In this document: one piece after another, positions 29,364 to 31,403 of the stretch
Layout: the number at the start of each line of letters is the position of its first letter
Position numbering within the stretch: the first letter of the stretch is position 1
DNA from: an uncultured Pelagibacteraceae bacterium
Lineage (GTDB): Bacteria; Pseudomonadota; Alphaproteobacteria; Pelagibacterales; Pelagibacteraceae
Assembly: GCA_902572515.1 (NCBI GenBank)
Contig: CACGGJ010000002.1
Coordinates: forward strand, 62,001 to 126,000
Length of the DNA stretch: 64,000 nucleotides
Direction of reading: 5' to 3'
Program-made: the position numbers and the translations under genes
Notes under the pieces: model-generated
The model's database searches: none
Told to the model about the DNA's origin: nothing
Seen by the model: only the letters and a program-made list of their open reading frames with translations

Positions 29364-29440
29364 TGGTGGGCCCGCCAGGACTCGAACCTGGGACCAATAC
29401 ATTATGAGTGTACTGCTCTAACCAACTGAGCTACAGGCCC
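29364..29440 (-). tRNA. tRNA with CAT anticodon, probably tRNA-Ile2 (lysidine type), alternatively Met
   Basis: Cloverleaf GGGCCTG-TA-GCTC-AGTTGGTTA-GAGC-A-GTACA-CTCATAA-TGTAT-TGGTC-CCAGG-TTCGAGT-CCTGG-CGGGCCC-ACCA; canonical D and T loops, encoded CCA. Confidence 0.9.
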
Positions 29441-29499: not shown

Positions 29500-29574
29500 T
29501 GGTGGGCCGTGTTGGTTACGCTCCAACTACCCCTGCAATGTCAATGCAGTACTCTACTATTGAGCTAACGGCCC
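29500..29574 (-). tRNA. tRNA-Val(GAC) with atypical D- and T-loops
   Basis: GGGCCGT-TA-GCTC-AATAGTA-GAGT-A-CTGCA-TTGACAT-TGCAG-GGGTA-GTTGG-AGCGTAA-CCAAC-ACGGCCC-ACCA; acceptor, anticodon and T stems perfectly paired, encoded CCA, but T-loop is AGCGTAA and D-loop lacks GG. Confidence 0.8.
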
Positions 29575-29579
29575 AAATT

Positions 29580-31403
29580 TTAACTTTCTAAAAAACTTTT
29601 TAATTGTTTTGATCTACTTGGATGCTTAAGTTTTCTTAAAGCTTTAGCTTCAATTTGTCTTATTCTTTCTCTTGTTACAGAAAACTGAAGACCAACTTCC
29701 TCGAGTGTATGATCAGTATTCATTCCGACACCAAATCTCATTCTCAGCACTCTCTCTTCTCTTGGAGTTAATGTAGACAAAATTTTTGTTGTTGCTTCGC
29801 CAAGATTTGATTTTATAGCTTGCTCAAGAGGCGCAAGGGCTTTCGTATCTTCTATAAAATCTCCTAAACTGCTGTCCTCCTCGTCTCCAACAGGTTTTTC
29901 TAATGATACTGGTTCTTTAGAAATTTTTAAAACCTTCCTTACTTTATCAAGTGGCATCCTTAATTTTTGAGCTAACTCTTCTGGGGTAGCCTCTCTACCA
30001 AATTCGCTTAAAATTAATCTTTGAGTTCTAACAATTTTATTTATTGTTTCTATCATATGAACTGGAATTCTTATTGTTCTAGCTTGATCTGCAATTGATC
30101 TTGTAATTGCTTGTCTTATCCACCAGGTTGCATATGTTGAAAATTTATATCCTCTTCTATATTCAAATTTGTCAACTGCCTTCATAAGGCCGATATTTCC
30201 TTCTTGAATTAAATCTAAAAATTGAAGACCTCTATTAGTGTATTTTTTAGCAATTGAAATGACAAGTCTTAAGTTTGCTTCAACCATTTCTTTTTTAGCA
30301 ATTCTAGATTCTTTTTCTCCTTTTTGAATTCTGCTCACTAATTTTTTAAAATCAGTAACAGATATTCCAAGCTTATTGCTTATTTCAATTAATCTTTCTC
30401 TAATATTTTTAAATTCATCTTTATATTTATTAAAAAATTGCTTCCATATATTATTTGTATCTAAAAATTTTTTTAAATTAGGATTTATTTCATTTCCTAC
30501 ATAAAATTTAATGAATTCACTTCTTTGAATTTTATGATCTAAAGCAAATCGTAGTAAATTACCTTCAAGAGATATTATTTTTTTATTTTCAACATAATGT
30601 TTTTGAACAAGTTCCTCTAAAACCGATGGAGAGAGCTGAAGTGATTTGATATTTTCTAAAATATCATTTACAATTTTCTCATAACCTTTTTCTTTAGCAG
30701 GTGAAAAGTTTCTAGAATTCAATATACATTCTAGTTTTTCTTTCTGATATTTTATTAATTTATTATATTCTTTAGTAAGAATATTAATAGTTTTTAAAAC
30801 TTTTGGTTTAATTTCAGTTTCCATGGCAGCAAGCGTGGGATTAAAATCATCATCCTCATCTCCAGAACTTTCATCTTTATCAGTTTCTCCTGAATTTTTT
30901 TGTTTAGCACTAGGTCCGGTAGACTCGTCTTCCATATAATTTGTATCAATATCAATTATTTCTCTCACTAAAATTTCATCTCTATTGAGCTGATCATTCC
31001 ATTCAAAAAATTGTTGAGCAGTTATTGGACTTTGAGAAAGAGCAATTAGCATCACATCTTTACCGGCCTCAATTCTTTTTGCAATTGCAATCTCGCCCTC
31101 TCTAGAAAGCAACTCAACTCCACCCATCTCACGTAAATACATTCTGATAGGATCATCACTTTTTTCAATTGTTTTTCCCTCTTCCTTACTAGAGTTTTCT
31201 TTTTTTCTTAAAACTTTATAATCTGATTTTTTTTCTACTAAATTAATCTTCTCATCCAAAATATGAATAAATGCTTGAGATAAATTTTCATCAGACAAAT
31301 TTCTTTTACCTAGAGATTTAGATAGCTCTTCATAAGTAATAAAGCCTCTATGGGTCCCTCGCCCCATTAATCTAGCAAATGATTTAGTAATAATTCTTTC
31401 CAC
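29580..31403 (-). CDS. rpoD: RNA polymerase sigma factor RpoD
   Basis: [91 protein letters not shown]. Confidence 0.98.

Follow-up and report, generated by a model that had tools for sequence, protein, structure and literature searches.

The 64,000-nucleotide stretch of DNA analysed here (the window) contains, on the minus strand at 29500–29574, a 75-nt gene for tRNA-Val(GAC) with an encoded CCA, whose anticodon was placed by ARAGORN at 29540–29542. Its downstream neighbour is a tRNA-Met(CAT) gene (29364–29440, minus strand; ARAGORN and Rfam), and its upstream neighbour is rpoD, encoding sigma-70 (29580–31403, minus strand), which was identified from its open reading frame and by tblastn on the corresponding loci of relatives. 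The same tblastn comparison showed that the linkage of rpoD to tRNA-Val is kept within the genus. The 5' end of the tRNA gene lies only 5 nt past the rpoD stop codon (window 29574–29580), a spacing from which it may be inferred that the tRNA is probably excised from the rpoD transcript. In several congeners (G002, G014, G012 and others; loci L018 and L024) from one to several kilobases of DNA are inserted between the rpoD-side tRNA-Val and tRNA-Met, as if this site were taking up islands.

Read directly, the arms of the tRNA-Val are an acceptor stem of GGGCCGT/ACGGCCC, a D-stem of GCTC/GAGT, an anticodon arm of CTGCA-TTGACAT-TGCAG and a T-stem of GTTGG/CCAAC, followed by A73 and CCA. Its score against Rfam RF00005 is 53.6 bits, above the gathering score of 29, compared to 72.7 bits for the adjoining tRNA-Met. 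The first-pass annotation of the window had described a complete tRNA-Val(GAC) with paired stems and an encoded CCA, next to a CAT tRNA with canonical loops; both descriptions are borne out, the first of them by ARAGORN, RF00005 and direct reading alike.

It is in its loops (numbered here according to Sprinzl) that the tRNA departs from the canonical elbow of bacterial elongator tRNAs, which is built from G18–Psi55, G19–C56, a U54–A58 reverse Hoogsteen pair and R15–Y48. By comparison with canonical Val D-loops of the form AGTGGTA, the D-loop AATAGTA (29555–29561, minus strand) reads A14 A15 U16 A18 G19 U20 A21, with A18 at 29558 and A15 at 29560; and alignment with relatives gives the T-loop AGCGTAA (29516–29522, minus strand) as A54 G55 C56 G57 U58 A59 A60, with A54 at 29522, G55 at 29521 and U58 at 29518. 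Where the canonical elbow has G18 and U55 there are A18 and G55, and where it has U54–A58 there is the reverse, A54/U58, while G19–C56 is retained, as it is in all 39 of the SAR11 Val and Phe genes that were compared. All three of these features had been pointed out beforehand, and direct reading confirms them. Position-by-position comparison adds a fourth, absent from the first account: the variable loop GGGTA (29528–29532, minus strand) sets A48, at 29528, opposite A15, a non-standard Levitt pair of A/A. With A60, this completes the list of differences at the level of residues; the tRNA offers neither a target for TruB at position 55 nor a methylation target for m5U54. The cloverleaf, the stem lengths, the 7-nt T-loop, U8, A14 and A21, R57 and the CCA end are all shared with the canonical form.

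Many genomes of the genus have a near-identical copy of this tRNA-Val adjoining rpoD, and its odd loops are therefore well beyond chance. In a sample of 198 genomes from the order, all rows listed for the genus have G55–C56, and the same tRNA-Val gene was found in contigs assigned to Pelagibacteraceae, Pelagibacterales and Candidatus Pelagibacter ubique in a named collection. An assembly error is ruled out by this conservation in many independent genomes. When 13 distinct A18/G55 versions of tRNA-Val from SAR11 relatives were compared, 273 of 273 stem cells were paired (100%), and 13 of the 21 stem pairs showed compensatory two-sided changes, a result equalled in none of 500 shuffles. The intact stems, the compensatory changes and loops that are nearly invariant throughout the genus rule out a pseudogene or a tRNA in decay, in keeping with the original opinion that the gene is not a decayed one.

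Search patterns that left positions 18 and 55 unspecified yielded 39 distinct Val and Phe tRNAs from the SAR11 family, with G–U at 18–55 in 19 of them, A–G in 20, and mixed combinations in none. Covariation of loop positions, which had been put forward as a check, is observed: 18 and 55 change together, and are either G–U or A–G. All Val(GAC) genes recovered from the other Alphaproteobacteria sampled have G18G19 and TTC. Within the genus itself, four congeners (G081, G082, G192 and G210) bear a canonical G18/U55 tRNA-Val at the rpoD locus, and the G210 gene is identical to that of the window throughout the acceptor and anticodon arms, the differences being confined to the D-loop, the variable loop and the T-arm. 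It had been stated in advance that relatives whose T-loop here is a canonical TTC would count against the idea, pointing to an assembly error or strain-specific decay. Such relatives do exist, but they have canonical D-loops as well, and this argues for compensation and not decay. On a tree of rpoD the elbow state changes four times, and counting well-supported branches alone leaves at least two changes; with good support for 4 of its 41 inner branches, however, the tree does not resolve the order of the switches. Judged on these sequence comparisons, it is strongly supported that the elbow of tRNA-Val(GAC) is a compensated alternative, and decay is disfavoured.

The same elbow is found in other tRNAs of these genomes. 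The complete genome of a congener (G012) has 32 tRNA genes, including a single tRNA-Phe(GAA) whose D-loop AGGAGTA and T-loop TGCGAAT give A18/G55 together with U54–A58 and G15–C48; its tRNA-Thr(GGT) (L795) is likewise A18/G55 (AGGTAGTA/TGCAAGT). In the window's own genome tRNA-Phe and tRNA-Val(GAC) are both A18/G55. The tRNA-Thr(GGT) of this host (L055; G000:C5:45993–46063) is unusual in another way, in that its T-loop GTCAGTA has G54/G58, with G18 and U55 kept. Since the sole tRNA-Phe(GAA) carries A18/G55, an elbow of this kind must, to go by the gene complement, support translation. This bears directly on a second option that had been offered for tRNA-Val(GAC), namely that its elbow is merely relaxed or decaying because another Val tRNA can read all GUN codons. 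The part of that suggestion that stands is the existence of a tRNA-Val(TAC), which was duly found elsewhere in the genome, with canonical loops; and a few congeners either gave no match for Val(GAC) (G093, G163 and G168) or have a damaged copy (G145). What does not fit is that the only tRNA-Phe has the same pair, that the stems are held by compensatory change with loops near-invariant across the genus, and that 18 and 55 change only jointly. As no mixed 18/55 states occur, relaxation is already refuted in large part, and it appears very improbable.

Viral contigs give the same picture for positions 18 and 55. When each combination was scanned for separately, A18/G55 and G18/U55 each came to at least 120 tRNAs, against 9 A18/U55 and 7 G18/G55, and the A18/G55 elbow was found in many phage isotypes. 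Scans for Ile, Phe and Val with 7-nt D-loops, in which positions 18 and 55 were left free, gave 147 G18/U55, 21 A18/G55 and no mixed cases; the corresponding numbers after clustering at 80%, which was the only means by which phylogeny was handled in the statistical tests, were 66, 16 and none. A similar free-position scan for Phe with 8-nt D-loops gave 69 G–U, 2 A–G and none mixed, so that the free-position scans sum to 216 G–U, 23 A–G and 0 mixed. The first-pass annotation had raised a compensated alternative elbow as one of its options, and this is the one strongly supported, by joint switching of 18 and 55 in orthologues, in isotypes and in phage tRNAs, and by the absence of mixed states from the unbiased samples.

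The remaining changes in the elbow appear to follow a rule of their own. In the phage set the 54–58 swap accompanies a non-standard 15–48 combination and a purine at position 60, and any link of 54–58/15–48 to 18–55 is not significant in the unbiased phage set (p = 0.17). This makes it less likely that the elbow changes all belong to a single package; a much stronger association came from a set that was selected on 18/55. The change at 54–58/15–48 looks like a second, separable switch, and tRNA-Val(GAC) has both. In many phage tRNA-Ile(GAT) genes, where 18/55 may be G/U or A/G, A54/U58 is combined with A15/C48 and A60, apparently a separate alternative core.

The T-loop of tRNA-Val(GAC) in two viral contigs (L308 and L360) is AGCGTAA, identical to that of the window's tRNA-Val, and these contigs are a possible source or recipient of transfer. 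An origin of the A18/G55 tRNA-Val in phages, followed by spread through recombination at the rpoD locus, would be consistent with this identity, with the two or more state changes on the rpoD tree, and with the finding that one and the same 75-nt tRNA-Val gene is shared by G132, which belongs to genus g7, and G007, from the window's own genus (g1). The stems of the phage copies differ, however, and in canonical genes of the G210 type the acceptor and anticodon arms are the very ones of the A18/G55 form, a match that points instead to conversion in place or to recombination at the level of arms. A phage origin is, in our view, rather unlikely.

Searches with TIGR00431 for TruB, the Psi55 synthase and an almost universal enzyme of tRNA modification, gave no match in g1 (complete genomes included) or in the two sister genera g8 and g9, but located the enzyme in the other SAR11 genera g5, g6, g7 and g155, in the sister family and 14 of 14 control genomes. 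Around rpsO, the gene order infB-rbfA-truB-rpsO is intact in TruB-bearing genera; in TruB-less genera (L244, L246, L248, L250 and L252), and also in the window's own genome (L247, in G000:C10), infB-rbfA-rpsO abut and truB is cleanly missing. Within SAR11 the A18/G55 form of tRNA-Phe is confined to the TruB-less g1, g8 and g9, and is never seen in the TruB-bearing g5, g6 and g7 or in f2, the sister family. It is tempting, given this distribution and the clean gap at truB, to see loss of TruB as the driver, an unmodified U55 being weaker without Psi55 and some tRNAs having moved to a modification-free A18–G55. Yet the switch is limited to two or three tRNAs out of about 32, g7 combines TruB with an A18/G55 tRNA-Val, and of 20 genomes outside SAR11 with A18/G55 tRNAs on their contigs, 17 have TruB; some g1 species, moreover, are TruB-less and yet have a canonical tRNA-Phe. 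As most non-SAR11 cases keep the enzyme, its loss was rejected as a general requirement for A18/G55, and the association in SAR11 rests on about one loss event. TruB loss is a doubtful candidate for the driver of the change, and may at most have been permissive for A18/G55 in SAR11.

Named genomes with A18/G55 tRNAs include those of candidate-phylum bacteria (Phe, His), Chloroflexi/Anaerolineae (Phe), DPANN archaea (Ala), Streptomyces and Streptacidiphilus (Gly) and Nostoc, and such tRNAs also occur in several tRNA arrays. A tRNA-His of Daviesbacteria (L188, 6755–6829) has the D-loop AAAAGTA, the T-loop AGCGTTA and A15/A48, which is the loop set of the SAR11 tRNA-Val in G105 and G191; no TruB match was found in the genome that carries it. 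The tRNA-Gly(TCC) genes of Streptomyces and Streptacidiphilus (L130, L140, L152, L153 and L183), three of which stand in tandem in L130, mostly lack CCA and are candidates for dedicated cell-wall glycine tRNAs. Their recovery in the same scan, and the dedicated cell-wall tRNA-Gly genes of S. aureus (PMC9976931), lend some colour to the idea that tRNA-Val(GAC) is specialised for a non-ribosomal role, with an elbow altered to avoid EF-Tu. The staphylococcal non-proteinogenic tRNA-Gly resembles tRNA-Val(GAC) in having altered loops on an intact cloverleaf, but it serves the cell wall and escapes EF-Tu, whereas the elbow of tRNA-Val(GAC) is also that of the only tRNA-Phe, and of many phage isotypes. 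A cell-wall or lipid transferase that depends on valine is not known to us from SAR11, and such a specialisation seems extremely improbable.

The reading that we prefer is that tRNA-Val(GAC) is very probably a working tRNA, in which the D-loop and T-loop make mutually compensated alternative contacts. In atomic terms, the canonical contact has G18 donating to O4 of Psi55, with U55 making the turn, and G19–C56 forms the face used by many partners. The canonical G18 stacks within the T-loop and pairs with Psi55 (PMC7912444, PMC4810234). In tRNA-Val(GAC), A18 would face G55 in place of G18–(pseudo)U55, against a background of retained G19–C56, reversed A54/U58 and A/A at 15–48. The run G55-C56-R57 is predicted to turn as U55-C56-R57 does, a GNR turn being substituted for a UNR turn; residue 18 would still donate the hydrogen bond (A18 N6-H) and residue 55 accept it (G55 O6 or N7), and A18 would still be intercalated in the T-loop stack. 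Coupling of 18 and 55 does not by itself give the geometry of the pair, and docking of the loops in this manner is deduced from their coupled change. An A18–G55 pair within a GNR turn would account for the avoidance of mixed pairs and for the dispensability of Psi55 and m5U54, and the L-shape and the exposed G19–C56 face could be kept in the absence of either modification. Loss of TruB in the lineage may have lifted the selection that otherwise holds U55.

Eukaryotic initiator tRNA, which has A60, shares both A54 and A60 of its T-loop with tRNA-Val(GAC). It forms an A54–A58 pair (PMC7912444), and differs in that it keeps the 18–55 contact and A58, whereas tRNA-Val(GAC) has U58, and is altered at both 18 and 55. 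Natural tRNAs in which the G18–Psi55 contact is lacking or shifted include tRNA-Pyl and bovine mitochondrial tRNA-Ser(UGA) (PMC7609411, PMC6337575); their D-loops are short, their anticodon stems 6 bp long and their variable regions 3 nt, while tRNA-Val(GAC) has standard arms and is changed at tertiary positions only. The literature describes the G18–Psi55 contact as invariant (PMC6337575), and no tRNA modification is said to be conserved more universally than Psi55 (PMC7912444). Other departures are collected in a review of unusual tRNAs found in nature, in which a keyword search showed no A18–G55 (PMC7609411). No description of a tRNA having A18 with G55 was met with in open-licence full text, though the pair may have turned up in engineered D/T-loop selections published in subscription journals; nor did any of the open-licence papers retrieved for truB and Pelagibacter appear to deal with loss of the gene.

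We propose, tentatively and as something a little short of probable, that A18–G55 is a second, interchangeable solution to the elbow, used in an essential tRNA of SAR11, recurrent in phages and found as single instances in DPANN archaea and several further bacterial phyla, which frees a tRNA from Psi55 and which in SAR11 accompanies a natural loss of TruB and translation without Psi55. Both tRNA design and tRNA gene finders assume the TTC/GG rule. Because the G210 orthologue and the window's tRNA-Val differ only around the elbow, a clean side-by-side test of the two forms is possible. SAR11 are the most abundant bacteria in the ocean, and as a natural lineage without TruB in which some tRNAs are pair-swapped, they would constitute a ready-made experiment on the purpose of both the contact and the modification.
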